DNA of 54,324 bases from a virus, in IMG/VR virus record IMGVR_UViG_3300037486_000437, positions 1-54,324 of that record; one strand, written 5' to 3'. Made by a program: the position numbers and the translations under genes. The number at the start of each line of letters is the position of its first letter. Positions within the stretch are counted from its first letter, which is position 1. Below the pieces are notes generated by a model. The model worked only from the letters and a program-made list of their open reading frames with translations, did no database searches and was not told the origin of the DNA. This document shows positions 3,982 through 54,324 of this stretch, one piece after another.

Positions 3982-4223
3982 GGCGTCTTCTCCCGTTCTC
4001 CCACTCTCGTCCCCGCCTTGCCGGCGGCCAGTTGCCCAGACCGACCGCCGGGCTTCAAGGAGGGAGCGGACCTATGTCGTCAGTCCGTCCAGACAGCCGC
4101 CATCTATGACAACCCTCGTTTGATCTGTTCTGATCTCAGTTTCCCCATCATAGATCGCGGCTCGCTGCGCGCACTGACCCCTGACCCCTGACCCCTGCCT
4201 CCTGCCCCCTGCCCCCTGTCGCC
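3982..4223. other. Non-coding spacer with a long inverted repeat
   Basis: About 240 bases without a convincing gene in an otherwise tightly packed operon. It contains AGCCGCCATCTATGA at 4095-4109 and its inverted partner TCATAGATCGCGGCT at 4148-4162 (14 of 15 pairs), which could form a stem with a loop of about 38 bases in RNA, followed by a heptanucleotide array. It may be a processing or attenuation element, or the remnant of an insertion. There is no U-run, so it is not an obvious terminator. Confidence 0.5.
4173..4222. repeat. Heptanucleotide repeat array
   Basis: Seven consecutive CTGACCC/CTGCCTC/CTGCCCC units immediately downstream of the head-closure gene stop codon. Confidence 0.9.
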
Positions 4224-4628
4224 TCACGCCGTCACCGCCGCCCGCAGCAGGCTCAGCTCCAACAGCCGGCCCAGACTCCCGCCGGCGTCGGTCACATGCT
4301 GGATATCGAACGGCCCGGCGTCGATGGTCGTGCCGTCCGCCCGTTTGACCGTCGTCACCCGGTACTCGGCGCTCGCGCCATACGTCGCCAGCTCGCTGCG
4401 CCAGGCCAGGAAGAGCGTATAGTACAGCACCGGCGCGCCTTCGTTCTGCCGGTTGACCTCCTCGCCGCCATACCCGCCGCGCGCGGGCTGCGCATCCAGC
4501 CGGCAGGCGACCCCCGTCGTCGCAGCCGCCCACGTCGTCGTGCCGTGGCCATAGCCGGCCGCGCTGCCCGCGCCCTCGGTGCGCTTTTGCAGCGTGCAGG
4601 TGTGGATCAACAGACTCGTAATGCTCAC
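4224..4628 (-). CDS. Head closure/stopper-like connector protein
   Basis: A 134-residue protein beginning near TSLLIHTCTLQKRTEGAG, the pattern of SPP1 gp16-type head-closure proteins: a short strand, HTCTLxR, then a Gly/Tyr/Thr-rich loop. A GTG at 4628 was preferred because CAGGAG, part of the repeat array just upstream, lies eight bases before it and because sequence further upstream is antisense-like. It lies between the connector adaptor and the HK97 gp10-like protein, matching the canonical order of neck genes. Confidence 0.6.
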   Translation of the reverse strand: MSITSLLIHTCTLQKRTEGAGSAAGYGHGTTTWAAATTGVACRLDAQPARGGYGGEEVNRQNEGAPVLYYTLFLAWRSELATYGASAEYRVTTVKRADGTTIDAGPFDIQHVTDAGGSLGRLLELSLLRAAVTA

Positions 4629-8445: not shown

Positions 8446-9689
8446 CACTTCACCTCCGGTGCCGCAAGCACCTGCCACTCATTGTCCACCACGCTGCCGC
8501 GCGGCCCACCGCGGCCCGCATAGTTCGCGGCCGGCGCATCCGCCGGCCGCAGCGCGTCCGCCAGCTTGCGCAGCGTCGCCGTCGGCCAGCCGGCCAGCTC
8601 CTCGGGCGTAAACGTCGCCCGCCCGTTGGCCTGCAATTCGGCCAGCAGCCCCGCCCGCTCCGCATCCTGGTTGGTCTTCAGCCCCACCAGCGCCTCACGC
8701 AGCGCGGCCGCCCCGCCGAACTCCGTCACCATCGCCGCCAACTGGCCAGCCAGTGCGTTGACGGCTGGCTCCTCTGCCTGGACCGCAACCGCAGCCTCGC
8801 CTACCACAGCAGGCGCAACCTCAGCCTCGGCCTTTGCCTCGTCCATAACCTTACCTCCTGATCCAAGTGGCCCCGCCGCCTCGGCCGGCGTACTAGAGCC
8901 TATCGCCACCGAGCCGGCTGCGTTGGCCGTGGTACGGGCCACGCCTGGCGCAACGTCTCGATTGCTCCCATCGTCTGACTCCTGACTCCTGTCCCCTGAC
9001 TCCTGACTCCTGACCCCTGACCCCTGACCCCCGTCCCCTGCCTCCTGATCCCTGGCCCCTGACTCCTCATTCACCCGCGGCGCGCCGCAGCCATCCTCCC
9101 AACTACACGCGCCCTTGCTATGCGGCAGCAGCGCCAGATGATCGGGCCGCAGATTGCGCGCAATGCCCACATACGGCTTGCCGGCCAGCTCGCCCGGCGC
9201 GCTCTCGAAATCCCGGAAATAGGCCGTGCTCACCTCCACCGGCCCGCCCGCCTCCAGCAGCTCCAGCAGCCCGCCGTAGCCCATCGCCGTCATCTTGGCG
9301 CTGTCCAGCCACATCTCGCCGCGCAATTTGCCGTCAGGCCCCTGTACCGCCCCGTACAGCCGCCCCGCCAGCGTCCGCTCCAACACCGCCGGCGTGCGGG
9401 CCGAGATCGGCATCCCGCGCTCCCTGGGGTGCTCGATGGGGATCGGCACGTCGTTCCACAGCAGCACGCTGGCCGCCACCTCAGTTGCCGGCACCAGCTC
9501 GTCATTGAGCACGCCCGGATTCAGCGCCACCACCGGCACGACGAGGCGCTCCCGGCCATCCAGCATCTCCCGGCGCACGCAGCACGTCGCCTCCGCCAGG
9601 TTGATGCGCAGCTCGCCGGCGTGCCCTGGCGTGTCAGCCTGCCCCAGGCGTTGCGCTATGTCAAGCGTCGTGGTCGTCGTGTCGTCCAT
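8445..9689 (-). CDS. Prohead protease/scaffold (DUF2213-like)
   Basis: A 414-residue protein. Residues about 1-195 match the DUF2213 phage protease: PVVALNPGVLNDELVPATEV, IPIEHPRERG with its histidine, then VEVSTAYFRD and YVGIARNLRPDHLALLP, ending in a Cys-containing GACSWEDGCG. The C-terminal third is acidic and Ala-rich, like scaffold. A heptanucleotide array encoding QESGDR-type repeats (about residues 215-250) separates the two. It would cleave and guide capsid assembly. The ATG at 9689 has GAGG upstream; 9698 is an alternative. Confidence 0.75.
   Translation of the reverse strand: MDDTTTTTLDIAQRLGQADTPGHAGELRINLAEATCCVRREMLDGRERLVVPVVALNPGVLNDELVPATEVAASVLLWNDVPIPIEHPRERGMPISARTPAVLERTLAGRLYGAVQGPDGKLRGEMWLDSAKMTAMGYGGLLELLEAGGPVEVSTAYFRDFESAPGELAGKPYVGIARNLRPDHLALLPHSKGACSWEDGCGAPRVNEESGARDQEAGDGGQGSGVRSQESGDRSQESDDGSNRDVAPGVARTTANAAGSVAIGSSTPAEAAGPLGSGGKVMDEAKAEAEVAPAVVGEAAVAVQAEEPAVNALAGQLAAMVTEFGGAAALREALVGLKTNQDAERAGLLAELQANGRATFTPEELAGWPTATLRKLADALRPADAPAANYAGRGGPRGSVVDNEWQVLAAPEVK
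8975..9067. repeat. Heptanucleotide repeat array inside the protease/scaffold gene
   Basis: About 13 CTGACTC, CTGTCCC, CTGACCC and CTGCCTC units read in frame as a GQGSGVRSQESGDRSQ-type linker between the protease and scaffold parts. Confidence 0.9.
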
Positions 9690-22377: not shown

Positions 22378-22746
22378 TCAGCGCTCCCACGCCAGCCGAT
22401 ACGCCCGCGCGGCGTTGTCGTCTGGCGCAGCGTCAACCCAGGCCGCCGCGGCCGAAACCGCCCAGTCCGCCGCGGCCGGAACCGCCAAGTCCGCCGCGGC
22501 CGGAACCGCAACCTCTTTGCCCCGCGCCTGGTACGCCGGCACGGTCGGCGCCCGAGTGGGCGCCGGGTCGCTGGGCACGGCTTTGGGCGGCAACGCGCGC
22601 CAGTAATGGCCGATGGCCGGCAGGATCACCATGCGCGACCACAGATAGCTATTGAGCAACACGCCGCCGACGCAGATCGCCTTCACCCACCACAGCGTCT
22701 CGCCGGGCACCGGCCCGTAACTCGCCCAACCTGGCCACGGATACAT
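22378..22746 (-). CDS. Single-span membrane protein with Ala-rich repeats
   Basis: A 122-residue protein with one membrane segment (WVKAICVGGVLLNSYLW, then SRMVILPAIG) and a tail containing near-tandem repeats (AAADLAVPAAADWAVSAAAA) of about nine residues. The ATG shares a base with the stop of the nucleotidyltransferase gene (TGATG), and its TGA is one base ahead of the FtsK-like ATG. Probably part of the same envelope-associated unit. Confidence 0.55.
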   Translation of the reverse strand: MYPWPGWASYGPVPGETLWWVKAICVGGVLLNSYLWSRMVILPAIGHYWRALPPKAVPSDPAPTRAPTVPAYQARGKEVAVPAAADLAVPAAADWAVSAAAAWVDAAPDDNAARAYRLAWER

Positions 22747-23342
22747 CACGGCACCACCTCTCCCGCCAACGGCGCCCGGCGCGTAGCCTGCTGCCACCAA
22801 CGCCCCGCCACCCGCGCCTGCGGTTCCAGCCACGCCAGCCCCAGCGCCGCGAACACATCCCGCTCCTCTGGCGTCTCTAACATGCCCCCGTCCGGCCGCC
22901 ACACCCGGCCCTCCCGAATCAACAGCGTATCCGGCCGCGCCCCCCCCTGCCGGCACGCCGTCACCAGCCAATGGGAGAAATCTGCGGAACCCGTCCTGAG
23001 CGCCAATTGCACCCCCCACGTCTCCGGCTTTACCAGGAACAGATCCACCGGCAGCCCCCGAAACGCAAACTGCTTGAACCGCGGCCCGTCCTTCGTGCGC
23101 ACCCCCCCCAGCTCGCGCAGCGCCACGTCCACCAGGTCCACCGGCCGGCCGCTCGGCTCGCCGAACAGATCGAGCTCCCACGCCAGCCTGGGGATGCACA
23201 CGATCTCGAGATCGCCGACCGTCGCCGCCTGCCGGCGCAGACTGCCCGCGATCTGCAGCCGCTCACAGGCCGGCCGCAACCGTTCGCACAACTCCACAGC
23301 TACCGCCTGGGCGGCCGTATAGGCTATCGGCACCTTGCTCAT
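22746..23342 (-). CDS. Pol-beta-type (family X) nucleotidyltransferase
   Basis: A 198-residue protein with the nucleotidyltransferase core: IAGSLRRQAATVGDLEIV (about 32-49) holds the GS-x-RR and GD-x-E/D metal site, and VDLFLV near residue 105 supplies the third carboxylate. Residues 115-150 with FSHWLVTACRQGG match the family X palm end. The 8-kDa helix-hairpin-helix lyase domain and a PHP exonuclease are missing, so it is a stripped-down form. It may act in phage DNA repair or in nucleotidylation of another target. Overlaps neighbours by one and four bases. Confidence 0.75.
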   Translation of the reverse strand: MSKVPIAYTAAQAVAVELCERLRPACERLQIAGSLRRQAATVGDLEIVCIPRLAWELDLFGEPSGRPVDLVDVALRELGGVRTKDGPRFKQFAFRGLPVDLFLVKPETWGVQLALRTGSADFSHWLVTACRQGGARPDTLLIREGRVWRPDGGMLETPEERDVFAALGLAWLEPQARVAGRWWQQATRRAPLAGEVVP

Positions 23343-24410: not shown

Positions 24411-25445
24411 CTAGTTGCCACTAACAAAAAACGGTAGATACAGCCCCCATACGGCTGGCGGTAACTCGCGATACTCGATACGGTAGTCACGGCATCCCGT
24501 GATGCTTCCCGACGCGTACACCTCGGCCATCACGTCGCCATCCTCCGAGATGTCGTCCCAGACGACGGGGAGCTTGCCGTTACCGATGCTGTCGAATTTC
24601 ACCCACTCCCCGGCGCTGTCCTGCCGGTAGAGCAGGATTACAGGATACACCCCGCTCGCGCCAATGGCCGTCAGCGTCCGTGTGTAGCGCGGCGTATGCA
24701 CGAGGTGGAAGACATCGACGATATCGGTGGTCATAATCTGCGAATCGTCCAGCGGTACACCGGGATACAGCGGCGTAGCCGTGCTGGCCGTGTCGTTAGG
24801 TTCTCGCGCTGAGCCAGCGCATAGGTCACGGCTCGCCAGCGGGCGCGCACCCGTGACGGTGCCGCCAACTCCGCCGTCAGCCTGCCACGCGATTGACGCG
24901 CCCTCGTGGACGCCACGATAGACGATGCCGAACATGCGCACCGACTCCGAGCCGGTCGGAGCCAGTTTGAGCGCCGCGCCCGCGGTGGCCCAGATCATCG
25001 GCCCGTTGACCTCCGTAACGTTGGCGGTATCAGTCCACAGCGTGATCTCCGGCGCGGCGCTGCTGTGAAGCGCGTATAGAAAACCGGAGTAGAGCGTCCC
25101 GTCAACGTCGAACACGTTCGGGCCGGAGAGATGCTCTAGCGTAGGCGTCACTACTGGCGTCGGCCAGGCGACGGGGCGGAGGCTGATGCTGCTACTCGCC
25201 CTCAACGAGCGGAGCCCGACCGCGTTCGGCGGTTGGGTGGGCGTCGGCGTCGCAGCCGGCGTCGGCTTCGGCGTCGGCGTGCAGTCCGGTATCGTTATGC
25301 CGGTCTGTACGTTTGCTTGGGTGGACGCTTCCGACACGGACGCTCCGATACGATCATGTGACGGCGGGGCTGACCAGAGCTCCGCCGTTATCGGTGCTGG
25401 TGTCGCCGCCAGCAGCGCGAGAACGAGAACGATTGCCGTAATCAT
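24411..25445 (-). CDS. Secreted Chloroflexota-style protein (prophage cargo candidate)
   Basis: A 344-residue protein with a signal peptide (MITAIVLVLALLAATPAPITA), a Thr/Pro linker (TPTPKPTPAATPTPTQPP near 55-72), a beta domain, and a second domain with EPNDTASTATPLYPGVPLDD and VDVFHLVHTPRYTRTLTAIG, the style of bacterial pre-peptidase C-terminal domains. It ends WGLYLPFFVSGN, like the YLP-hydrophobic tail of many exported Chloroflexota proteins. It starts with an ATGA overlap from the initiator gene. It would act outside the cell or on its surface, perhaps altering the lysogen. Odd cargo for an early operon. Confidence 0.7.
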   Translation of the reverse strand: MITAIVLVLALLAATPAPITAELWSAPPSHDRIGASVSEASTQANVQTGITIPDCTPTPKPTPAATPTPTQPPNAVGLRSLRASSSISLRPVAWPTPVVTPTLEHLSGPNVFDVDGTLYSGFLYALHSSAAPEITLWTDTANVTEVNGPMIWATAGAALKLAPTGSESVRMFGIVYRGVHEGASIAWQADGGVGGTVTGARPLASRDLCAGSAREPNDTASTATPLYPGVPLDDSQIMTTDIVDVFHLVHTPRYTRTLTAIGASGVYPVILLYRQDSAGEWVKFDSIGNGKLPVVWDDISEDGDVMAEVYASGSITGCRDYRIEYRELPPAVWGLYLPFFVSGN

Positions 25446-26236
25446 GTATCCTCTCCCTCTGACTCCTGATCCCTGTCCTCTGACTCCTGATCCCTGTCCT
25501 CTGACTCCTGATCCCTGTCCTCTGACTCCTGGCTCCGCAACCGCTGCACCCGCCAGTAGTCCTGGGTGTAATTCCCCAGATCCACATTCTCCGGCGCCGG
25601 CTCGTTGCGGCTGAGTTTCGCCGTCACAAATGCGCCCGGATTGTTGATCCCCTTGGCCGTCGCGCAATAGCGCGTCCAGGAGATGATCTCGATTTCCACC
25701 TCCGCCGGCGACAGCCCGTGCTCGTGCTCCGGGTCGGAGCCTAGCGCCGTCGCCACCGCCGCCTGGGCCCGCTCCCGCCGGCACCCCGTGCGCTGCACCA
25801 GGATCTCGGCGAGGCGCACGACCTCCGGGGCAAATTGGAGGTTTTTTTCCTCCAAATCGCCCCGGGGTAGTAGTAGTAGTTTAACCTTAACCTCTTCAGG
25901 AGAATGGTTAATTAAACTACTACTACTACTGTGAAATTGGAGGTTTTTTTCCTCCAAATCGCTGCCTGCGGCAAGCTGATCCGGCGTGAATAGCGGCAAC
26001 TGCACCGCCACGGCCGTCAGCCGCCACTGACCATAACCGCCGGGCGATTCCGCCAGCCGGATGCCGTCCGCCGCCAACGTGCGCAACGCCCGCCGCACCG
26101 TGGTGCGCTCGATCCCCGTGATCTCAGAGATTTCCAGCACCCCGGCCGGCCGCCGCAGCCAACGCAGCGCCAGCAAACACGCCAACGGCGCGCCCTTCAC
26201 CACCCGCAAAAAAACCGGCAGCGTCCAGGTGTCCAT
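25442..26236 (-). CDS. Replication initiator-like winged-helix protein with embedded origin
   Basis: A 264-residue protein. Residues about 30-75 are a winged helix (VLEISEITGIERTTVRRALRTL, then GGYGQWRLTAVAV). Residues 92-135 are encoded by the origin-like DNA and so contain DLEEKNLQF twice. Residues 136-225 are a helical domain (PEVVRLAEILVQRTG; EVEIEIISWTRYCATAKGI). The tail is a seven-residue repeat (SQESEDRDQ) from a heptanucleotide array. A DNA-binding initiator gene holding the origin in its middle parallels lambda O. It lies in the early operon next to a conserved replication-region gene. No similarity to O itself is claimed. Confidence 0.6.
   Translation of the reverse strand: MDTWTLPVFLRVVKGAPLACLLALRWLRRPAGVLEISEITGIERTTVRRALRTLAADGIRLAESPGGYGQWRLTAVAVQLPLFTPDQLAAGSDLEEKNLQFHSSSSSLINHSPEEVKVKLLLLPRGDLEEKNLQFAPEVVRLAEILVQRTGCRRERAQAAVATALGSDPEHEHGLSPAEVEIEIISWTRYCATAKGINNPGAFVTAKLSRNEPAPENVDLGNYTQDYWRVQRLRSQESEDRDQESEDRDQESEDRDQESEGEDT
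25458..25532. repeat. Higher-order heptanucleotide array (21-bp period)
   Basis: Three near-perfect copies of a 21-base unit made of CTGACTC, CTGATCC and CTGTCCT, encoding the SQESEDRDQ-type tail of the initiator. The triplet order shows recent expansion of a 21-base block. Confidence 0.9.
25832..25962. other. Candidate replication origin inside the initiator gene
   Basis: Two identical 29-base repeats (25832-25860 and 25934-25962), each a TTGGAGG-T7-CCTCCAA palindrome, flank an 18-base inverted repeat (25867-25884 and 25912-25929, made of GTAGTAGTAG and TTTAA) around an A/T-rich core with TTAATTAAA. The whole 131 bases are nearly mirror-symmetric and far more A/T-rich than the genome. Iterated sites plus an unwinding-prone core inside an initiator gene is the architecture of lambdoid origins. 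Confidence 0.7.
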
Positions 26237-26587
26237 CTATGCCTCGCCCTGCTCCGGCTGATTTTCGGAAGCCGCCGCCTGCGGCGCTGCGCTGATGCGA
26301 ATCGGCAGCGTCTCACGCCCCGCTACCCGCATCGGCAGCGCTTCCAGCGTGATCGTCTTGCCCCGACACTGGCTCACATCATCGCCAAACAGCGCCCGCA
26401 ATGCGCGCTGATTCGTGGGACTGAGCACCAGGCCCTTTTGCTTGCCGACGAAATACGCGACAGGTTTCTGCTCCACCTGTCCCTGGCCGTGCAGCTCCTC
26501 GACTACAATCTCCCGAATCACCACGATGACCTTCCGGCCGCCGAGGTGCTCGCCCTTCAGGTAGTGCTCAAAATCACTCCACTTCAT
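26237..26587 (-). CDS. Conserved phage replication-region protein
   Basis: A 116-residue protein: KWSDFEHYLKGEHLGGRKV, then EQKPVAYFVGKQKGLVLSPT and NQRALRALFGDDVSQCRGK, ending with ALPMRVAGRETLPIRI. This pattern (Pxxxf-x-K-x-LILNxTNxxxL) recurs in small proteins next to replication and recombination genes of many phages and looks like an OB- or beta-barrel fold. Its function is not established. Start ATG at 26587 overlaps the previous stop; its own stop abuts the initiator ATG. Confidence 0.6.
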   Translation of the reverse strand: MKWSDFEHYLKGEHLGGRKVIVVIREIVVEELHGQGQVEQKPVAYFVGKQKGLVLSPTNQRALRALFGDDVSQCRGKTITLEALPMRVAGRETLPIRISAAPQAAASENQPEQGEA

Positions 26588-28065: not shown

Positions 28066-29615
28066 ACCGCCTCCAACAACTGCACCAGTTTCTCGGCTGC
28101 ATGGAGCAGCTCCACCAGCGCTCCCGTAGCGCTCGGATCGTCCTCCGCCTCGTATTCCGGCAGGCTTGCCGCATACGTCAGCAACCCGTCCCGCAACTCC
28201 ACCGCGTCCGCCCGTGCGCGCCGCAGCACCCCCAGCAGCCGCGCGCTCTCGGCGATCTCCGCCCTGTTCGGCCCTGGGCGCAGCGTGCTGCCGCCACCCG
28301 GCACAATCGTCATGGCCTCGGCCACCTTCCCGGCCGCCACTTTGGCCGACACCCGCCCCGGCGCGCCCGTTTCCCCGTTCCCCCGTTCTGCATTCTGCAT
28401 TCTTTCTTCTGCGTTCGGCTCCTCCTCCCCCAGCAACACCCGCACCGCCGCGAGCAACTCCCGCTGCGTCTCCGTGCTCACCACGGCGCCGTCGCCGGCG
28501 AACTTGCGCAGCGAGGCCCACAACGGCGCCCCGCCGTTCTGGCGCCGATGCGCCACCGCGTACAGAACGGTACGCCTACCGTCGGCGTCGTCCGCCAGCT
28601 CCGCATTCTCCACCAGCGCCGCCAGCCACGCCTCCACCGTCGCCACCAGCCCGCTCCCGTCCCCTGACCCCTGACCCCCGCCTCCTGACCCCTGACCCCT
28701 GACCCCTGACCCCTGACTCCCGCTCGCCCGCGCCTTCTCCGCACACTCCGGGCCGTAGCCCTTCGCCACCGAATCCGGGTCATCCAGCACCCGGTTACAA
28801 ATCCTGCAGCGCGTCTCCCGCCCCGTCCCCTCCGCCCGGCCCCGCTCCGGCTCCGGTCGCTCGGCCGGCTCTGCCTCGTCCTCTACCTCCTGACCCCTGA
28901 CCCCTGACTCCTGCTCCCCGTCCCCTGCCTCCTGTCTCCTGACCCCTGACCCCTGCTCCGCTGCCACCACCGCACACGCCTTCTTCAGGTCCCCCAGCAG
29001 CCCGCGCAGGCCCATGCTCTTGGCGTACTCCCCCAGCAGCAGCAGCCGATCCCGCCCCACGTCGTTCTGCAGCGCGATCTGCGCCAGGATGTGCACCCGC
29101 ACACTCGCCCCGAACTGCCCCAGCCACGACCGCACCGCCCCCTGGAGCTGCGCCGGCGTGGCGAACGCGTTCGGGTCCGCCGGCGTGCCGCCGATCGGCT
29201 TGTGTTGCAGGATCACCGTCTTGGCCGTGCTCACGCCGATCTTCTCGCCGGCCGCCGCCCGCTCGAGCGCTTCCTGCCGCGCTTCGTCGGGCGTGCCAGG
29301 GGAGGCGAGGAGGTAGGCCGCCGTCGTTGCGATATCCAACTGCGCGACATGTTGCACACTTGAGAACACGGAGTGGAGTTCGATTACCTTGTAGACCGTG
29401 CGGCGTCCGAGTTGCTTGGCATCAATCCAGCCATCGAAGCCGCCTCGTTTGTTGTGCCGGAGCATATCTCGAATCTCGGCGAACTTGCCTCCGGCATCAA
29501 TCATGTTGACGAGGCCTTGGCGCATGAGACCTTGCGCTTCCGAAAAGCGTTGCTCGATGACGATTCGCTGCTCGCTATCGTCGTACTCAAATGGTTTGAG
29601 AATATCTGTAGCCAT
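28062..29615 (-). CDS. Multidomain early protein: DUF3102-like helical part and zinc-binding DUF6011-like part
   Basis: A 517-residue protein. Residues about 20-130 resemble DUF3102/KorB-like proteins (GLVNMIDAGGKFAEIRDMLR, then FDGWIDAKQLGRRTVYKVIE, with an HTH-like end). A Cys cluster CRICNRVLDDPDSVAKGYGPECA (about 265-290, split here as CRIC then GYGPEC) matches the small zinc-binding DUF6011. Two heptanucleotide arrays encode QESGVRGQ-type linkers around it. A C-terminal helical part follows. GAGGAGG precedes the ATG at 29615; a GTG at 29621 overlaps the Cro-like stop. Likely an early DNA-binding or regulatory protein. Confidence 0.6.
   Translation of the reverse strand: MATDILKPFEYDDSEQRIVIEQRFSEAQGLMRQGLVNMIDAGGKFAEIRDMLRHNKRGGFDGWIDAKQLGRRTVYKVIELHSVFSSVQHVAQLDIATTAAYLLASPGTPDEARQEALERAAAGEKIGVSTAKTVILQHKPIGGTPADPNAFATPAQLQGAVRSWLGQFGASVRVHILAQIALQNDVGRDRLLLLGEYAKSMGLRGLLGDLKKACAVVAAEQGSGVRRQEAGDGEQESGVRGQEVEDEAEPAERPEPERGRAEGTGRETRCRICNRVLDDPDSVAKGYGPECAEKARASGSQGSGVRGQGSGGGGQGSGDGSGLVATVEAWLAALVENAELADDADGRRTVLYAVAHRRQNGGAPLWASLRKFAGDGAVVSTETQRELLAAVRVLLGEEEPNAEERMQNAERGNGETGAPGRVSAKVAAGKVAEAMTIVPGGGSTLRPGPNRAEIAESARLLGVLRRARADAVELRDGLLTYAASLPEYEAEDDPSATGALVELLHAAEKLVQLLEAV
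28659..28721. repeat. Heptanucleotide repeat array
   Basis: Nine units of CTGACCC with CTGACTC and a degenerate start, read in frame as SGVRGQGSGGGGQGSG in the DUF6011-containing gene. Confidence 0.9.
28886..28957. repeat. Heptanucleotide repeat array
   Basis: About ten units (CTGACCC, CTGACTC, CTGCTCC, CTGCCTC, CTGTCTC) in the same gene, upstream of the zinc-binding part in the protein. Confidence 0.9.
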
Positions 29616-29851: not shown

Positions 29852-29884
29852 CCTTCCTCCTGTCAACCATTATCAACTGTATGG

Positions 29885-29913
29885 AGTATAGCATAACTCT
29901 TTACGATTGTCAA
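29885..29913 (-). promoter_or_regulatory. Early (pR-like) promoter
   Basis: Minus strand TTGACA (29913-29908), exactly 17 bases, TATACT (29890-29885) with an extended TGC just upstream. ATTGTCAAT at 29906-29914 is a near-palindrome over the -35 box, and TTTACGA occurs twice about two helical turns apart (29901 and 29923), both possible operators. It drives the Cro-like gene and the early operon. Confidence 0.8.
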
Positions 29914-29964
29914 TACGGAAATTTACGAATATAAAGAAATGTTCGCGCCAGTGTGGACAAGGCG

Positions 29965-29980
29965 TGATATAATCGAGGTC
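29965..29980 (+). promoter_or_regulatory. Repressor promoter with extended -10, leaderless transcript
   Basis: TGATATAAT (29965-29973) is a consensus extended -10 with no -35 at the proper distance. The GTG at 29981 begins seven bases after it, so the predicted RNA would start at or next to the start codon, as for lambda cI from pRM. Confidence 0.6.
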
Positions 29981-30565
29981 GTGAACGAAGGCGTGCGGAG
30001 AGACCGGCTTGAGGCACTGATGGCGGCGCGTGGCTATGGCCCGGGTGAACTGGCCTACCAGGCGGGCGTCAGCTATAACTACATCTACAAGATCCGGCTA
30101 GGGCAGGCGCCCCATATTTCAGCCGCCCAGGTCGCCAAGCTGGCCGCCGCGCTGCGCACCAGTCCCGGCTATCTCATGGGTTCGACCGACGATCCGGCGC
30201 CACAACCGGTGCCCTCGACGCAACTTGTCGTCAACGAAGATCGAGCAGATTACGCGCCCCTCACCCGCGAGGTCGCGCAACTGGCCGCACGCCTCAACCG
30301 CCTGCCGGCCGGCGCCCGCGCCAAGATCATCGCCGCCTTTGCGGCTGTGGTGGAGCTGACCGAAGGTCAACCCCTCGCCGTAGCTGAGGCGCTCAACGCA
30401 CCGGCGGGGGAGGATCAGGCCGCGACCGACGCGCGTCTGGCCGATCAGCGCCGGCGGCTCTTTCGTCTGTTGGATCAGTTGACGGACGAGGAAGTAGAGG
30501 AGTGGACCCGCCGCATTCAGGCCGCAGCCGCCGCAGAACAACGCGCAGCAGCTCAGACAGGATAG
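29981..30565 (+). CDS. XRE-family repressor (CI-like)
   Basis: A 194-residue protein from GTG 29981 (an ATG at 29939 would lie upstream of the predicted promoter). Residues about 8-65 are the DNA-binding domain (LMAARGYGPGELAYQAG, then VSYNYIYKIRLGQ and LAAALRTSPGYLMG). The C-terminal part is helical and acidic, with LPAGARAKIIAAFAAVVEL and a final coiled coil. There is no S24/LexA-type peptidase domain, so RecA-stimulated self-cleavage is not expected; induction must work differently. It would hold the early promoter shut in the lysogen. Confidence 0.85.
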   Translation: MNEGVRRDRLEALMAARGYGPGELAYQAGVSYNYIYKIRLGQAPHISAAQVAKLAAALRTSPGYLMGSTDDPAPQPVPSTQLVVNEDRADYAPLTREVAQLAARLNRLPAGARAKIIAAFAAVVELTEGQPLAVAEALNAPAGEDQAATDARLADQRRRLFRLLDQLTDEEVEEWTRRIQAAAAAEQRAAAQTG

Positions 30566-34276: not shown

Positions 34277-37200
34277 CTAACTCTGTTTGACTAGCCCCAG
34301 GTTTTGCAGCGCGCTGATGACGTTGTCCACTGTCGCACCGGCCCCCGTCGCCAGCACTGCGCGCGCCACCGCCGTCACGCCGTAGAAGCCGATGTAGGAC
34401 GTGCTCGCCCCGATTATTACATCGCCGCCGTTGGGATTGAGCTTCAGCGGTCGATAGACTGAGAGGTCGTTTGGCTTCTGCGCCTGAATCCATGCGGGAT
34501 ACGATGTCCCGCCGTCATTGATGATGCCGAAATTGAGTTCGCTGCCAGCCCACGTGCGATCCGTGTAGCCGACGCGCAACATACCATTACGCGTTGTACC
34601 GGACGTAGCTGGCGCATTCAGCGCGCCGCCTGCGTCGAGCGGCAATACTGGCGTGCCATTGACACCGACGCGATTGTTCGTCGTGTCCACGGTGACAATC
34701 GCCGTGCCGCTGGCGTTGCCGAGTTGCAGCGCCGTGGTGCTGTCGGATGCGGGACGGATGGCGCCGCCAGCCATAGTGTAGTTTCCCGATGTATCGAAAG
34801 TATGTTTAGTAACAAGGTTGAATTCAAGGGTTGCCGCGTCCGGCGTAGCTCCAGATGTTGACAGCGATAGTCTTGCCTGGACTCCAGCGTTACCATTTGC
34901 TTGCAACCTGACATAAGCCTTTTTGGCTGATGTTATAGGAACTGATGAGTCTAAAGATACAATTGCATCTGCTGTAGCGTGATATACGCTTACCGAAATC
35001 TCTCTACCCGATGTACTCGTCCATGCCGAAGTTCCCGAAAAGATATTGGTGCCATCCGTAAATCTATAACCAGAAGTGGGCACAAAGCTCGAATCGGCGG
35101 TGAATGTAATCCCATCCGCATCCAGTTTAACATCCCCGCCGCCCGCGTACAGCCGGCCATCCGTGCCGAAGTACACCTGCGCCACGTGCGTGTTGTAGGT
35201 TGCCAGACGCCCGATATCGCCGTCACGCCAGATTTTGAGGCCCGTTTCAGGCCACGTCGCATCACCGTCATGGCCGGTCTGATACGTGCCCTGGTAGATG
35301 CCGCCCGCCGCGCCGATGCTCAGGAAGCCGCTCATGTTCAGCGCGCCGGTGTCCACCACAATCGCCGCCAGGCTCGCCACATAGATTTTGTCGGCGGTGA
35401 CGCTGCCCGGCTCTAGCTCGGACGGAAACGGCTTCCAGGCGCTTGGCGTGTCGGACTGCTCGACCTGCACATGATCGATGTAGAGCGAGCCTTGCACTGC
35501 CGCGCCGCTAGTGATGCTGATAAATAGTCCGCCGATGGCTTCAACGCTGGCACCCCAGGCGACGCGTGCAACGTAACGCTGCCATGCCGCAGTAAGATTC
35601 GGCCGCGCGATCCAGGTTTCCGATGCTGGCGCTGTATTCCAGTAGAGCGCCATGCTCGTTCCAATCGCCGTGCCCACCGCCGCGGCCCACCACGATACGA
35701 CATAGGTCGTATTAGCCAGCCAGTTGCCCTGCACACCGCCGCTAATGACGCTGGTTGTGTATACGCCTTTTACCGTTGTGTTATTGACGGCCCAGGTCAC
35801 GCTCTGATAGTTGCGACCATCGACGCCACCCGCAACGTGCACATCGTAAGCCGTGAACGGTTCCAACGCGACTGAGTTGTTATAGCCCGCCCAACCCGTC
35901 GCCCACCCGGTCGTGCCGCTCTCTACCTGCATGGTGCTATTCAGCAGCAGATTGGCCCCGCCCGCCGTGATGATCAACTTCTCCGCGGCCACCGTGCCTG
36001 GCGACAAATATGTGCCGTCCAAGACGCTGCCCACGCCGGGCGTCAGGGCCCCCGTGATCGTGACCCCCGTCGCCGTCAGCGCACCCGTAGCCGAGACCCG
36101 GAACGGCGCGGCCGCCTTAACGCTGCCGCCGATGTTCAAGGCCCCATCCGTGGCGTCGTTGAGCCACAGTTTGTTGGTGGAGCCGACCACGATGCTACCC
36201 TGCGTTACCGTGATGCCCAAGGCGTCAATGGTCACGCCGCTGGCCTTGATTTTGCCGTCCGAATCCAGATATGCCTGTAGCGCCCCGCTGTTCGTGCCCA
36301 ACCATTTGCCCGTGCGCGTCGCCGGATCGTACAGCCCCACCCAGCCCGTCGCATTGCCGTAATCGCTGGGCGAGGTGAAGTGCGTCGCCGGGTCGATCAA
36401 CTCGATGCGATTGCGCACCCGCACGATGCCCACCTCGCCCTGCACGATCGGCGCGCTCGTGGCGCCGGCCCCGTCACCGCCGACCGCCGCCGATAGGCTA
36501 TCATTCTGCCCGCCGAAATTCACCGTCGCCCGGATGCCGAACTCGCCGGGCGTCAGGCTCATCGTCACCTTGCGCACCGGGTAGTCGCCCACCAGCCCCA
36601 GCGCCGCAAAGCTGACCGAAACTTGCTGCCCCGCCCGGATGCCGAACCGCTCCACCGTAGCTGTGCCCGAGACGCTGCCATAGGCGTACTGCTCCAGCAG
36701 CGCATCCGCCAGGTTCTGCGCATCCGCCAGCGCCGTAATGCTTGAATCAGAGACCTCTTTGTCGAACCACAGATTGCCGTAGGCGGTATAGCTGGCATTG
36801 CTCTGCGCCGTGGCGACCACCGCCGTGTCGCTGCGATAGACCACCACAATTGCCGCTGACCCGGCCGGTGGGCTGGCATCCGGGAAACGGAGCGTGCCGG
36901 CGCTGTAGTTGACCAGCACATCATAGCCGCCGCCGAAGCTGTCATACCAGTCCACGCCGTGGCTCTGCAGCGTGCCGGCGACGGTGATGCGCACGATGTC
37001 CCGGAGCGGCTGCGTGGTCAGCGTGAAGAGCACCGTGCTGCCGTCGCCCGTGAACGTGTCCGTGATCTCCGCCGAGGGCGCCGTGCCGCCGCGCACCGTG
37101 ATGCGATTGTAGATCAGGCTGGCGTCCCGGCTCAGCGCCGGCAACCCCAGCACCGGAAAGTCACTCGACCAGTCGGCGGTCGTCACCAGCGCCAACCCAA

Positions 37201-40200
37201 ACGGCGCTACGTCGGCGCTGGCCGCCCGGAAATACAATTTCTTATCCGCCCGGATCTGCCATTCCCAGTCCGTGCCGGCGTCCTCCGCAGCCAGCGCCTT
37301 CAGGCGCTCCAGCACGCTGGTGAGCTGCTCGCCGTTGGCCGTGAAGGTCGTCAGCGTCGGCCCGGCCGAGACATACGTCGCGGTGTTGAACTCCGTCAGG
37401 CCCGCGGCCGTGAAAGCGTCGGCGATGATGTCCTCGGCCGTGGTGTTGGTCCAGGTGCCCCGGATCAGCGGCGCCCGCCCCAGCCGTGTGCTGTAGCTCT
37501 CGCAGGTCAGCGCCCAGGCGCGATGGTTGCCATTCGCCACCAGCGTCGGCTGCGCCTTGACGACATAGCCGCCGAACTGCGCTACGCCGTCGATCTTGAA
37601 GATCACCACCTGCCACTCCGCCGCCGTGAAGGCGTTGCTCACGTCCTCGATCGTGAAGCGCAGCGTATCCACCTGGCTGCCGGCCACATCCACCCATTGC
37701 AGGCTGCCCCGCTGCAGCAGCGTGATGCGCTCCGTACCGGCGACGGTCAGCGAGAACGTCAACACCTGACTGCTGACAGGCACCGACGGCGAGACCGACG
37801 CCGACGGGCTGCGGCTGCTGGACGGGCTGCGCGAGCTTGACGGTGAGCGCGACGGTGAGCGCGACGGGCTGGTCGATGGTGAAATTGAGCTTGACGGTGA
37901 GCGCGACGGTGAAATCGAGCTTGACGGTGAGCGCGACGGTGAAATCGAGCTTGACGGTGAGCGCGACGGTGAAATCGACGGGCTGGTCGATGGTGAAATT
38001 GAGCTTGACGGCGAGCGCGACGGTGAAGTCGAGCTTGACGGGCTGGTCGAGCTCGACGGTGAGCGCGACGGCGAAATTGAGCTCGACGGTGAAACTGACG
38101 GTGACTCGCTCGCCGACGGGCTGGTCGATGGTGAAATTGAGCTTGACGGTGACTCGCTCGCCGACGGGCTGGTCGATGGTGAGCTTGAGCTTGACGGGCT
38201 AGTCGATGGTGAAACTGAGCTTGACGGTGACTCGCTCGCCGACGGGCTGGTCGACGGTGAAACTGAGCTTGACGGTGACTCGCTCGCCGACGGGCTGGTC
38301 GATGGTGAAATTGAGCTTGACGGGCTGGTCGATGGTGAAACTGAGCTTGACGGTGACTCGCTCGCCGACGGGCTGGTCGATGGTGAAACTGAGCTTGACG
38401 GTGACTCGCTCGCCGACGGGCTGGTCGATGGTGAAACTGAGCTTGACGGTGACTCGCTCGCCGACGGGCTGGTCGATGGTGAAATTGAGCTTGACGGTGA
38501 CTCGCTCGCCGACGGGCTGGTCGATGGTGAAATTGAGCTTGACGGGCTGGTCGATGGTGAAATTGAGCTTGACGGCAATTGCGACGGTGAAACTGAGCTT
38601 GACGGTGACTCGCTCGCCGACGGGCTGGTCGATGGTGAGCTTGAGCTTGACGGTGACTCGCTCGCCGACGGGCTGGTCGATGGTGAAATTGAGCTTGACG
38701 GTGACTCGCTCGCCGACGGGCTGGTCGACGGTGAAACTGAGCTTGAAGGTGAGCGCGACGGTGAAATCGACGGGCTGGTCGACGGTGAAACTGAGCTTGA
38801 AGGTGAGCGGCTCGGTGAAATCGACGGGCTGGTCGACGGTGAAACTGAGCTTGAAGGTGAGCGGCTCGGTGAAATTGACGGGCTGGTCGATGGTGAAATT
38901 GAGCTTGACGGTGACTCGCTCGGTGAAATTGACGGGCTGGTCGATGGTGAAACTGAGCTTGACGGTGACTCGCTCGGTGAAATTGACGGGCTGGTCGATG
39001 GTGAAACTGAGCTTGACGGTGACTCGCTCGGTGAAATTGACGGGCTGGTCGATGGTGAAATTGAGCTTGAAGGTGAGCGCGACGGTGAAATCGACGGGCT
39101 GGTCGACGGTGAAACTGAGCTTGACGGTGACTCGCTCGGTGAAATTGACGGGCTGGTCGATGGTGAAACTGAGCTTGACGGCGACCGGCTCGGTGAAATT
39201 GACGGGCTGGTCGATGGTGAAACTGAGCTTGACGGCGACCGGCTCGGTGAAATTGACGGGCTGGCCGATGGACTGGCCGATGGCGACACACTACTCGATG
39301 GTTCCACCGCCGCGTGCGTGATCGCCAGTAGCGGCCGATAGCCCGCCGTGTCATTGTCTTGCGTGCAGATGTAGATATATTCGGCGCCCGTCGGGGTGGT
39401 GCCAGCTTTGTCGCGAGACGAGCGCAGTCCATAGTATGTGTTGCCGGTTTTACTCGGCCAGGCGGTCGCGAGATTGCCAGAGGTGTATTGCGTATCGGTG
39501 CTGATGCCGCTCGTGCTGCGCCAAATGTTGTCGTCGGCGGCGGCGGATAGGCAGTTGTCGTAAGCCGCCTCCTGGTTGCCTGAGCTAAGCGGGTTCTGCG
39601 CCGACCAATCCTGTTTGACAATCTGGACGTTGAAATCGGTATCGGACACGTCAGTGGCGCAGGTCAGTTTGAGATTGACCTGCGAGATGACATCGGTGTC
39701 TGGAATGGCGCTGGTGCTGAAAACCAGCAGTCCGCGATAGACCCCATAGTATCCGATATAGGTTTGTCCTACGGCTGCGGAGGTGTAGTAGTTATCATAG
39801 GAAAGGCAGTCGCTACGCGCGGTAGAATAGATAAGATCGTGGTTGTATATATACGCATCGGCGCTGCCCGCCGCGTAGTCGGGATCAATCGTCACCGGGT
39901 AGACAGCATCGGCCAGCCAACTGACCGGCACGCCAGTGTAGAGATACTGGATGTTGCCGACCGTGCGCGCATAGCGTTTGCACTCAGCGCGGCTGCCTGG
40001 CCCCACACGGCTATCGTGCGCGCTTGGCGGCGGGAAACGCATCCCGGAGGTCTCAAATTCGTCCAGCCAGCCGTCCGGGAAACTGCTGCCCGTGATCTGC
40101 GTTTCGAGCACCAGCCAGTCAGACAGCTTGACGCCGGGGATGCTGGGCTTCTCGGCAATGACGATTTCCTCTCGCAAACCCTTCTCAGTCAGCGTCAACA

Positions 40201-40597
40201 CGCGCTTCCAAATGCCGTTCTCTGCAATGATCTGGTTGCCGGAAACATGGCCGAGCGGGATCGTGCGATAGCCGACAAAGGTCTTGGTAGCTGGCGTGAG
40301 GATGCCGACGCGCGTCGAGCGGTGGCTATGGTTCTGGCCGACGATGCGCACCGCCCCGTCGAGGCCGATGCGTGTCGCCAGCCCCGGCGCGCCGTACTCG
40401 GTGCCGATGACCTGGAGCGCAGTATCGAGCGGCTGCCACACGCCGTTCGTGTCCTGCCAGTGCGCCGGACTGCCGACGAAATGCGTGATGCGCTCGGTCG
40501 CGCTCAACGCCGCGGTGATGCCGTAGCGATGGCGCGTGAGCACCTTCCCGGCCAGGTCGGGATTGCGTTCGAGAAAGTCAGCCGCCCAATTTGCCAT
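34277..40597 (-). CDS. Giant tail hub/fibre protein with mucin-like Ser/Pro repeat
   Basis: A 2,106-residue protein. Residues 1-430 include YPVTIDPDYAAGSADAY and a DNRLRE/CBM96-like beta domain. Residues about 431-932 are a Ser/Pro repeat built of SPSxSPS units. Residues 945-1350 look like a baseplate hub (FTIEDVSNAFTAAEWQVVIF; LSRDASLIYNRITVRGG; TVERFGIRAGQQVSVSF). Then come a fibre part with GKIKASGVTIDALGITVTQG, a jelly-roll-like domain near 1560-1700 (QGSLYIDHVQVEQSDTPSAW) and a C-terminal LQNLGLVKQS end. It would link the tail tip to the cell surface. It is preceded by a coupled 43-residue gene and a glycosylation cluster. Confidence 0.75.
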   Translation of the reverse strand: MANWAADFLERNPDLAGKVLTRHRYGITAALSATERITHFVGSPAHWQDTNGVWQPLDTALQVIGTEYGAPGLATRIGLDGAVRIVGQNHSHRSTRVGILTPATKTFVGYRTIPLGHVSGNQIIAENGIWKRVLTLTEKGLREEIVIAEKPSIPGVKLSDWLVLETQITGSSFPDGWLDEFETSGMRFPPPSAHDSRVGPGSRAECKRYARTVGNIQYLYTGVPVSWLADAVYPVTIDPDYAAGSADAYIYNHDLIYSTARSDCLSYDNYYTSAAVGQTYIGYYGVYRGLLVFSTSAIPDTDVISQVNLKLTCATDVSDTDFNVQIVKQDWSAQNPLSSGNQEAAYDNCLSAAADDNIWRSTSGISTDTQYTSGNLATAWPSKTGNTYYGLRSSRDKAGTTPTGAEYIYICTQDNDTAGYRPLLAITHAAVEPSSSVSPSASPSASPSISPSRSPSSSVSPSTSPSISPSRSPSSSVSPSTSPSISPSESPSSSVSPSTSPSISPSRSPSSSISPSTSPSISPSESPSSSVSPSTSPSISPSESPSSSVSPSTSPSISPSESPSSSISPSTSPSISPSRSPSSSVSPSTSPSISPSRSPSSSVSPSTSPSISPSRSPSSSVSPSTSPSASESPSSSISPSTSPSASESPSSSSSPSTSPSASESPSSSVSPSQLPSSSISPSTSPSSSISPSTSPSASESPSSSISPSTSPSASESPSSSVSPSTSPSASESPSSSVSPSTSPSASESPSSSVSPSTSPSSSISPSTSPSASESPSSSVSPSTSPSASESPSSSVSPSTSPSSSSSPSTSPSASESPSSSISPSTSPSASESPSVSPSSSISPSRSPSSSTSPSSSTSPSRSPSSSISPSTSPSISPSRSPSSSISPSRSPSSSISPSRSPSSSISPSTSPSRSPSRSPSSSRSPSSSRSPSASVSPSVPVSSQVLTFSLTVAGTERITLLQRGSLQWVDVAGSQVDTLRFTIEDVSNAFTAAEWQVVIFKIDGVAQFGGYVVKAQPTLVANGNHRAWALTCESYSTRLGRAPLIRGTWTNTTAEDIIADAFTAAGLTEFNTATYVSAGPTLTTFTANGEQLTSVLERLKALAAEDAGTDWEWQIRADKKLYFRAASADVAPFGLALVTTADWSSDFPVLGLPALSRDASLIYNRITVRGGTAPSAEITDTFTGDGSTVLFTLTTQPLRDIVRITVAGTLQSHGVDWYDSFGGGYDVLVNYSAGTLRFPDASPPAGSAAIVVVYRSDTAVVATAQSNASYTAYGNLWFDKEVSDSSITALADAQNLADALLEQYAYGSVSGTATVERFGIRAGQQVSVSFAALGLVGDYPVRKVTMSLTPGEFGIRATVNFGGQNDSLSAAVGGDGAGATSAPIVQGEVGIVRVRNRIELIDPATHFTSPSDYGNATGWVGLYDPATRTGKWLGTNSGALQAYLDSDGKIKASGVTIDALGITVTQGSIVVGSTNKLWLNDATDGALNIGGSVKAAAPFRVSATGALTATGVTITGALTPGVGSVLDGTYLSPGTVAAEKLIITAGGANLLLNSTMQVESGTTGWATGWAGYNNSVALEPFTAYDVHVAGGVDGRNYQSVTWAVNNTTVKGVYTTSVISGGVQGNWLANTTYVVSWWAAAVGTAIGTSMALYWNTAPASETWIARPNLTAAWQRYVARVAWGASVEAIGGLFISITSGAAVQGSLYIDHVQVEQSDTPSAWKPFPSELEPGSVTADKIYVASLAAIVVDTGALNMSGFLSIGAAGGIYQGTYQTGHDGDATWPETGLKIWRDGDIGRLATYNTHVAQVYFGTDGRLYAGGGDVKLDADGITFTADSSFVPTSGYRFTDGTNIFSGTSAWTSTSGREISVSVYHATADAIVSLDSSVPITSAKKAYVRLQANGNAGVQARLSLSTSGATPDAATLEFNLVTKHTFDTSGNYTMAGGAIRPASDSTTALQLGNASGTAIVTVDTTNNRVGVNGTPVLPLDAGGALNAPATSGTTRNGMLRVGYTDRTWAGSELNFGIINDGGTSYPAWIQAQKPNDLSVYRPLKLNPNGGDVIIGASTSYIGFYGVTAVARAVLATGAGATVDNVISALQNLGLVKQS
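37800..39305 (-). repeat. Coding Ser/Pro repeat region of the tail protein
   Basis: About 1.5 kb of imperfect tandem repeats with units of 12 to 30 bases that encode SPSTSPSISPSRSPSS-type sequence. The minus-strand frame is the true one: it joins two folded regions without a stop. Repeated long blocks show recent duplication, so the length probably varies between relatives. Confidence 0.9.
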
Positions 40598-53301: not shown

Positions 53302-53645
53302 CCAGGCGTGCCCGTCCCCTGACTCCTGCCCCCTGACTCCTGCCCCCTGGCGCCCGCGATCTCCGCCGCCAACTGCTCCGGCGTCAACACGGTCACGTGC
53401 TTGGCCAGCGTCGGCGTCGCCATGAAACCCGCCAACCCGCTGCCCGCCGCGGCCGCCGTCCAGCCGGCCGCCTTGCTCAATTCCTTCGCCAGCCTCTCCG
53501 GCTCTTTGGCGTGCTGCGTCGTCAGCCATCGTAATTGTTCCTCAGCTTCCAGCGGCGCAATCTGGCTGGCATACGCCAACAGCCGCCGCCAGCGCGTGCG
53601 TCCTATCTCGCCGTCGCTCCAGCCGTAGCAGCGCGCGACTTTCGC
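53298..53645 (-). CDS. Tail chaperone T-like extension, made by -1 frameshift
   Basis: This frame has no good start codon of its own but continues the G-like chaperone after a shift at 53639-53645. It encodes VARCYGWSDGEIGRTRWRRL, then LAYASQIAPLEAEEQLRWL and a helical tail with an alanine-rich hydrophobic patch (AAAAGSGLAGFMA). The YGW...I....W..LL pattern is typical of GT-type extensions. About 115 codons would be added to the 247-residue protein. Its end (GARGQESGGRSQG) is repeat-derived. Confidence 0.65.
   Translation of the reverse strand, partial: AKVARCYGWSDGEIGRTRWRRLLAYASQIAPLEAEEQLRWLTTQHAKEPERLAKELSKAAGWTAAAAGSGLAGFMATPTLAKHVTVLTPEQLAAEIAGARGQESGGRSQGTGTPG
53314..53350. repeat. 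Heptanucleotide repeat array
   Basis: CTGACTC and CTGCCCC units forming the 3' end of the T-like chaperone extension. Confidence 0.85.
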
Positions 53646-54324
53646 GAGCGTGTAGGCGAGACTGCGCCCTGACTCCTGACCCCTGACCCCTGACTCCCGA
53701 CTCCCGACAAAGGGCTGGCCTGCAACTCGCGCAGCGCCTCCGTCATCGTCTCTTGCAGCAACGCATCCAGCGCCATGCGCACGCGCTGCCCCAACGCCAG
53801 GATCTCCGCCACCGTCGTGTCCGTCAGCGCGCTCGCCAGCAGCGCCGCCCCCAACTGCCGGACGACCTCAACTGACTCCTGATCCCTGCCCCCTGCCTCC
53901 TGCCCCCCGTCCCCGGCCGCCTCCGCCGCTTCCCGCAAGCGCAACGCCAACCCGAACGTCGCCAGCCGCAACGGATACAAGCCCCGCACCCGGCCGTGCA
54001 GCGTCACCTCCGCCAGCGCCGGCGGCGCCGGGGCCGTGAACGTCGGCGGCGCCATCGTCTGGAGCCAGCGCGCCAGCTCGAATACCTGCAGCAGCGTCAC
54101 CTGGTCGAGCTGCTGCCGCGCCGTCTCCGGCGCCACCGCCAGCTCCGCAATGCAATCGGCGATCCACAACGGCTGCGCCTCAGTCGTCCAGCCGGCCGGC
54201 GGCTGCGTCACCCGCCGCGCAAATGCCAGCGCCTCATCGCTCGTAAAATCCCGCAGCTCGATCGCGCCGGCGGGCAACAAAATACGCGCCGGCTCCAACA
54301 CCAGCGCGTCCAAATCCAACCGCG
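53603..54324 (-). CDS. Tail assembly chaperone (G-like), main part
   Basis: Continues from the start codon at 149 across the circular join. The 247-residue product is mainly helical: FTSDEALAFARRVTQPPAGW, LDQVTLLQVFELARWLQTM, LYPLRLATFGLALRLREA, and a C-terminal VRMALDALLQETMTEALREL. G-type chaperones coat the tape measure protein during tail assembly. Two repeat-derived inserts interrupt it. The last residues (SPTRSRKSRAATAGATAR) are read only when ribosomes do not shift at 53639-53645. The gene order tube, G, GT, tape measure supports the call. Confidence 0.7.
   Translation of the reverse strand, partial: RLDLDALVLEPARILLPAGAIELRDFTSDEALAFARRVTQPPAGWTTEAQPLWIADCIAELAVAPETARQQLDQVTLLQVFELARWLQTMAPPTFTAPAPPALAEVTLHGRVRGLYPLRLATFGLALRLREAAEAAGDGGQEAGGRDQESVEVVRQLGAALLASALTDTTVAEILALGQRVRMALDALLQETMTEALRELQASPLSGVGSQGSGVRSQGAVSPTRSRKSRAATAGATAR
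53639..53645 (-). promoter_or_regulatory. Predicted -1 ribosomal frameshift site
   Basis: Minus strand G-CGA-AAG in the frame of the G-like protein; slipping back one base gives GCG-AAA. It differs by one base from the lambda G/GT slippery site G-GGA-AAG, and lies where the two chaperone frames overlap (53603-53660). Confidence 0.6.
53666..53707. repeat. Heptanucleotide repeat array
   Basis: CTGACTC, CTGACCC and CCGACTC units just upstream of the predicted frameshift site, read in the G frame as GVGSQGSGVRSQG and also open in the T frame. Confidence 0.85.
53872..53914. repeat. Heptanucleotide repeat array
   Basis: CTGACTC, CTGATCC, CTGCCCC and CTGCCTC units inside the G-like chaperone gene, encoding GGQEAGGRDQES. 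Confidence 0.85.
54198..54324. repeat. Terminal direct repeat (right copy)
   Basis: Exact copy of bases 1-127. Removing one copy gives a 54,197-bp circle. It lies inside the 5' part of the tail chaperone gene, so it is coding sequence and not a separate element. Confidence 0.9.

Follow-up and report, generated by a model that had tools for sequence, protein, structure and literature searches.

In the O protein of phage lambda the domain that binds DNA is N-terminal, and a C-terminal domain is separate from it. The lambda origin is situated in the middle of gene O, where 19-bp inverted-repeat iterons (four in lambda and six in Stx phages) adjoin an AT-rich region (PMC7466680). Palindromic repeats within a helix-turn-helix replication gene are found also in Escherichia phage phiV10, Edwardsiella phage GF-2, Vibrio phage H20 and Acinetobacter phage Ab105-2phi. 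The basal unwinding system of bacteria consists, in this order, of a DnaA box, a spacer and a DnaA-trio (PMC8287927), and in B. subtilis the 5'-TnnT-3' repeats bound by DnaD lie across from the DnaA-trios, on the other strand (PMC10201434). Open-access literature on DnaA-trios in phages or prophages and on triplet repeats in phage origins gave no account of an element like the present one.

The element described here shares with the lambda origin its place in the middle of an initiator gene, putative palindromic initiator sites adjoining an AT-rich stretch, and a gene product whose predicted DNA-binding domain is N-terminal, with a C-terminal domain apart from it. It had originally been predicted that the element follows the lambda plan, and this is only partly right: it applies to the probable origin within an initiator gene; the arrangement itself is different, since lambda has tandem iterons on one side (PMC7466680), whereas here one palindrome stands on each side in two-fold symmetry and mirrored triplet arrays, which lambda does not have, lie between them. 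The O-like origins of the four phages named above also differ, having at least three tandem palindromic copies and no triplet arrays. The resemblance to a DnaA box with its DnaA-trio lies in the order of the parts, a double-strand initiator site, next to it a triplet array and then an AT-rich stretch (PMC8287927), but phage-specific palindromes stand in place of DnaA boxes and the arrays come in mirrored pairs. The DnaD recognition element of B. subtilis oriC likewise has 5'-TnnT-3' repeats on one strand, as in TAG/AGT arrays; it is, however, a single one-strand element, whereas the arrays here are mirrored and no DnaD domain was detected in the protein. On the comparisons given below, the element is probably a phage replication origin built into its initiator gene, and it is predicted to work like the lambda O-type origins, differing from them in symmetry and in the arrays. 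Sequence hardly ever reveals where the origin of an uncultured temperate phage lies.

The phage and its putative initiator gene

The window, that is the whole stretch of DNA analysed, comprises all 54,324 bases of the virus record IMGVR_UViG_3300037486_000437, has a GC content of 66% and carries a 127-bp direct terminal repeat (1-127 = 54198-54324). The record is regarded as a temperate tailed phage, a siphophage, because a terminase, a portal, a protease-like protein, a tape measure, a serine integrase and a Cro/CI-like regulator are encoded. The open reading frame with the element (P0001, Table 1) belongs to the early leftward block and lies beside a divergent regulator gene (29939-30565, plus strand), a position which favours the origin reading.

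The winged-helix character claimed for this gene at the outset is borne out by the HTH_IclR match. Pfam matches of P0001 are generic helix-turn-helix families only, none of them in the C-terminal domain, and a sequence search of the PDB returned generic winged-helix regulators only. There is no PHROGs family match, so that the label of initiator rests on the relatives of the protein. The window yielded no homologue of O or P.

Table 1. Coordinates of the putative initiator gene, its domains and the parts of the element
Feature	Position	Strand	Basis
Winged-helix initiator ORF P0001 (264 aa), holds the element	25442..26236	-	ORF and homologues
N-terminal helix-turn-helix, residues 21-58, proposed palindrome binder	26063..26176	-	HTH_IclR E 2.4e-5; palindrome sequence tracks N-terminal domain
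C-terminal domain, about residues 136-216, proposed helicase recruitment	25589..25831	-	aligned with L053 and L056
29-nt repeat AAATTGGAGGTTTTTTTCCTCCAAATCGC, gene-upstream copy; 21-nt palindrome 25937-25957	25934..25962		direct repeat, 100% identical
29-nt repeat AAATTGGAGGTTTTTTTCCTCCAAATCGC, gene-downstream copy; 21-nt palindrome 25835-25855	25832..25860		direct repeat, 100% identical
Triplet array, 18-nt inverted-repeat arm (GTAGTAGTAGTAGTTTAA on plus strand)	25867..25884		repeat search and synonymous shuffles
Triplet array, other 18-nt inverted-repeat arm (TTAAACTACTACTACTAC on plus strand)	25912..25929		repeat search and synonymous shuffles
AT-rich core of 27 nt separating the two arms, proposed site of unwinding	25885..25911		AT content

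The element within the reading frame

The two identical 29-nt repeats, the 18-nt inverted repeat and the AT-rich core were all located as the original prediction had described them. The palindromic character ascribed to the 29-nt repeats is confined to the inner 21 nt, where each holds the perfect palindrome TTGGAGG-T7-CCTCCAA (a 7-nt arm, a 7-nt A/T spacer and a 7-nt arm); the remainder of each repeat is not palindromic. On the coding strand the order is TTGGAGG-A7-CCTCCAA, GTAGTAGTAGTAGTTTAA, core, TTAAACTACTACTACTAC and again TTGGAGG-A7-CCTCCAA, the inverted repeat being built from AGT/ACT triplets. Only two repeat copies are present, one on either side of the AT-rich core, and tandem iterons on one side are absent. 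Among the 60-nt stretches of the phage, the one at the core ranks second in AT content (0.68, the mean being 0.34).

In 200 synonymous-codon shuffles of the reading frame the longest perfect inverted repeat reached at most 11 nt, against the 18 nt observed, and the palindrome-pair score did not exceed 18.3, against an observed 21.0, which is the maximum of the score. The placement in the middle of the gene was confirmed, the centre of the element (25897) lying 58 nt from the gene centre, and so was the doubling of the peptide DLEEKNLQF (residues 93-101 and 127-135), which is the trace that the doubled palindrome leaves in the protein. Direct repeats around an inverted repeat superficially resemble a MITE-like mobile palindromic insertion with a 29-nt target duplication. 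This explanation is already contradicted and can practically be dismissed, as neither the 29-nt repeat nor the 18-nt inverted repeat has a further copy in the 54-kb genome (shuffled sequence would be expected to give none), the repeats are themselves palindromes, and homologues with unrelated letters keep the layout at the same place.

Relatives and conservation of the layout

As a protein query P0001 alone gave no match in IMG/VR or in GenBank phages. When IMG/VR was searched with the inverted triplet arms, a homologue 47% identical to P0001 was obtained (L005), with the same layout and another palindrome (GAGGGGG-AAAATTT-CCCCCTC); protein searches next yielded L054, among phages with a related terminase, and L056. 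A wider arm pattern gave 28 stretches and the same pattern in reversed orientation 53, many of these in the same kind of gene. The reversed orientation was dropped as a negative control because it returned more initiator genes; it shows that the polarity of the arrays is variable. A profile search of all collected loci recovered the family with E values from 9e-83 to 6e-6, and seven family members were matched by BLAST with P0001 (E 9e-35 to 2e-5). No relative was found among named phages (queries L056, L089, L144 and P0001), among plasmids (queries L053 and L054) or in two scans of genome contigs.

In about 22 diverged homologues from uncultured phages the layout recurs at the corresponding place of the protein, written in other DNA letters. 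The recurrence of one layout with different letters in some 20 distantly related uncultured phages speaks for a genuine function and supplies a model of origin opening that can be tested. The 23 family members analysed, most of them partial metagenome contigs, were in the majority found through the triplet pattern. The pair of palindromes brackets a mirrored triplet array, and the distance between the copies is 82-105 nt in most of the 23 (76 nt in L141 and L142, and 117-133 in L147 and L064 by the coordinates used). The palindrome arms include TTGGAGG, GAGGGGG, GAAAGCG, GAGTCGG, AAAGCAC, GACTCCG, GGTCGCG, GAATCTC, AAACCGC and AAGTTTC. For 17 of the 23 the palindrome pair was not matched in any of 200 synonymous shuffles each, and for L084, L109 and L144 a match arose in 3, 2 and 10 of 200 shuffles, respectively; in L126, L141 and L142 the automatic palindrome score was not above the shuffles, though short 13-nt palindromes are visible there.

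Because most members had been found by the triplet search, which introduces a bias, seven members obtained by protein similarity only, with triplets unused, were examined (L054, L056, L141, L142, L144, L146 and L147). All seven have mirrored triplet arrays between the palindromes, composed of AGT/ACT in L056 and L146, TTA/TAA in L054, GAA/TTC in L147, and TTC/GAA with some CAA in L141, L142 and L144; by type these are AGT, AAT or AAG/AAC triplets.

Palindromes and the N-terminal domain

Similarity matrices were computed from 20 members (19 in the partial tests), and the Mantel p-values given here are not fully corrected for shared ancestry. Members with similar N-terminal domains tend to have similar palindromes (Spearman 0.45; partial Mantel 0.44 with the C-terminus given, p=0.0005), which does not hold for the C-terminal domain (partial Mantel 0.06, p=0.31). 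Two natural swaps are seen in the family. In the pair L090/L134 the C-terminal domain (0.75) and the inner array (0.72) are alike, with an N-terminal similarity of 0.09 and palindromes at the background level (0.48); in the pair L112/L144 the N-terminal domain (0.70) and the palindromes (0.95) are alike, and the C-terminal domain (0.16) and arrays (0.14) differ. There is strong comparative evidence for the predicted reading of the palindromes by the winged helix. Such natural swaps of the DNA-binding half against the array half allow separate tests of the site and of the putative unwinding track.

Links to replication

The 6.9 kb made up by 22 elements and the 100 nt around them contain six perfect DnaA boxes, against one in 226 kb elsewhere in the same loci, an enrichment of about 200-fold (Fisher p 5e-9). 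These six belong to L112, L144, L146 and L147; L126 has such a box in addition, which brings the homologues to five. Where DnaA boxes are present in relatives they are positioned outside the palindromes. The gene of L056 (2953-4143) encodes a winged-helix initiator with a C-terminal DnaA_N / DnaA domain I (PF11638, E 3.9e-8), a domain that scans of other family members did not show. DnaA domain I is an interaction hub which helps in helicase loading (PMC8287927).

The same inverted arrays recur in genes of other initiator types, namely in L080, which matches DnaB_2 (E 4.7e-22) and DnaD-like PHROGs, as well as in L087 and L111, with matches to replication-initiation and O-like PHROGs. The arm pattern is present at 63 distinct IMG/VR loci, of which 26 lie in initiator-like genes, a grouping made by hand and set against a chance share of 3%, which is our rough figure; the other 37 are mostly intergenic or in unrelated genes. 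Inverted GTA/TAC arms outside initiator genes are seen in L086, L098, L104, L117 and L094 and in contigs of the L063 and L066 types, some of them near-identical across contigs. One contig, IMGVR_UViG_3300021090_000057 (L130 and L108), has a second, CTA...TAG inverted array elsewhere in addition to its initiator element.

The palindromes could be operators for the transcription of their own gene or of early genes, acting for example as a roadblock, with the inner repeat incidental or a terminator-like hairpin and no origin at all. The N-terminal domain does resemble transcription regulators, and co-variation of the palindromes with it is what operators would also show. However, the sites lie in mid-gene in every member and never at a promoter, mirrored triplet arrays and DnaA boxes would not be expected, recognised replication initiators contain these arrays as well, and the homologue L056 has DnaA domain I, all of which makes operators improbable. 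Symmetric protein-binding sites around an AT-rich core occur also at partition, packaging and recombination sites. That the element is one of these and not an origin is nevertheless a very remote prospect, as the DnaA boxes, the DnaA domain I in homologues and the recurrence in O-like and DnaD-like genes point to replication, and the terminase and integrase genes are located away from the element.

The claim of the original prediction, an origin within the gene of its own initiator, is well supported, the support being comparative: homologues keep the layout with diverged letters, the palindromes co-vary with the N-terminal domain, DnaA boxes are enriched beside homologous elements, L056 carries DnaA domain I, and inverted triplet arrays recur in O-like and DnaD-like initiators. 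Some observations count against an origin. GC skew, which had been suggested as a check, has no turning point near 25.9 kb and proved uninformative; there is no DnaA box (with up to two mismatches) at 25600-26300; and no recognisable helicase or loader gene is present in the 54-kb window.

Possible role of the triplet arrays

It is quite possible that the arrays serve as triplet tracks. Their arms have a 3-nt period and AT-rich triplets and are situated between the predicted double-strand binding site and the core. Arrays of the CTA...TAG orientation have the published polarity of DnaA-trios, and many relatives have this consensus polarity; the opposite polarity is found in the window and in L005, L056, L061, L064, L079, L146 and L147. 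A DnaA-trio calls for three or more triplets that have A in the middle, on the strand which runs 3' to 5' away from the box. In the window 3'-CAT-5' is read four times inward, which fits the loose NAN rule (PMC8287927), whereas the consensus 3'-GAT-5' runs outward, away from the core, unlike in DnaA-trios. A strict DnaA-trio reading of the window was rejected on account of this reversed consensus polarity and the missing DnaA box (none within 16 bp of the array), and a strict DnaA-trio rule for the family on account of the GAA/TTC arrays and the mixed polarity.

That the arrays form hairpins is conceivable, with some doubt, since folding of 20 members showed arms able to pair in every one of them, though weakly in L141 and L142, and the strand of the window is well above shuffles in folding strength (z -8.6); against strict pairing, the triplets of L141 and L142 differ between the two sides without a matching change. 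A simple low-stability linker is a less likely role. From member to member the arrays vary in their letters as well as in their polarity, which makes any one interpretation of them weaker.

Pairing might also take place at the level of RNA, where mRNA hairpins formed by the palindromes and the inner repeat would control translation or stability. This is agreeable with the pairing of the inner arms and with the strand of the window folding far better than its shuffles (z -8.6, as DNA). It is very improbable all the same: the outer palindromes are near-identical within one phage (mean identity 86%) and unlike between phages (45%), a match which hairpins do not require, of the 27 mismatched arm pairs 16 are other than G-U, and the palindromes follow the DNA-binding domain.

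Proposed mode of action

We infer from these comparisons that replication starts at the element and that the arrays and the C-terminal domain take part in it. The N-terminal winged-helix domain would bind the two identical palindromes as a dimer, one per side, and the bound initiator would open the AT-rich core, possibly together with host DnaA in those relatives which have DnaA boxes. The mirrored triplet arrays may then hold the bubble open, either as single-strand tracks read in 3-nt steps, one per strand and DnaA-trio-like, or as hairpins on both strands. The C-terminal domain is proposed to bring in the host helicase, one on each strand, so that replication would proceed in both directions.

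A broader generalisation, which is somewhat unlikely as a whole, would be a widespread class of phage origins with a two-sided unwinding module, in which a winged-helix initiator replaces the DnaA box and the mirrored arrays are 3-nt-step tracks serving one helicase per strand. Such a module would have been joined to unrelated initiator families (the P0001 family, O-like and DnaD-like), its DNA-binding and array halves being exchanged independently. Should the arrays prove DnaA-trio-like, an unwinding device of chromosomes would have a phage counterpart in the form of a mirrored pair, which would bear on the loading of two helicases for bidirectional replication. The layout is recognised by symmetry and not by letters, and could therefore be used to locate origins and to name initiators which have no protein-family match.

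Other features of the window

Downstream of the initiator gene a 198-aa reading frame (22746-23342) matches the DNA polymerase beta thumb (PF14791, E 2e-7). The most AT-rich 60-nt stretch of the phage (0.72) is situated at 29884-29943, at the start of the regulator gene, and is a likely operator region. Short arrays of 7-nt units (CCCCTGA / CTCCTGA) are dispersed in and between genes, with 46 copies of a 46-nt window, at 183-256, 1788-1861, 4160-4233, 8961-9076, 25456-25531, 28651-28989, 53305-53379 and other places; the acidic tail EDRDQES of the initiator is encoded by one of them. Long tandem arrays with 48- and 54-nt periods occupy 37799-39362 within a 2106-aa reading frame (34277-40597, minus strand), and the GC skew flips locally there.
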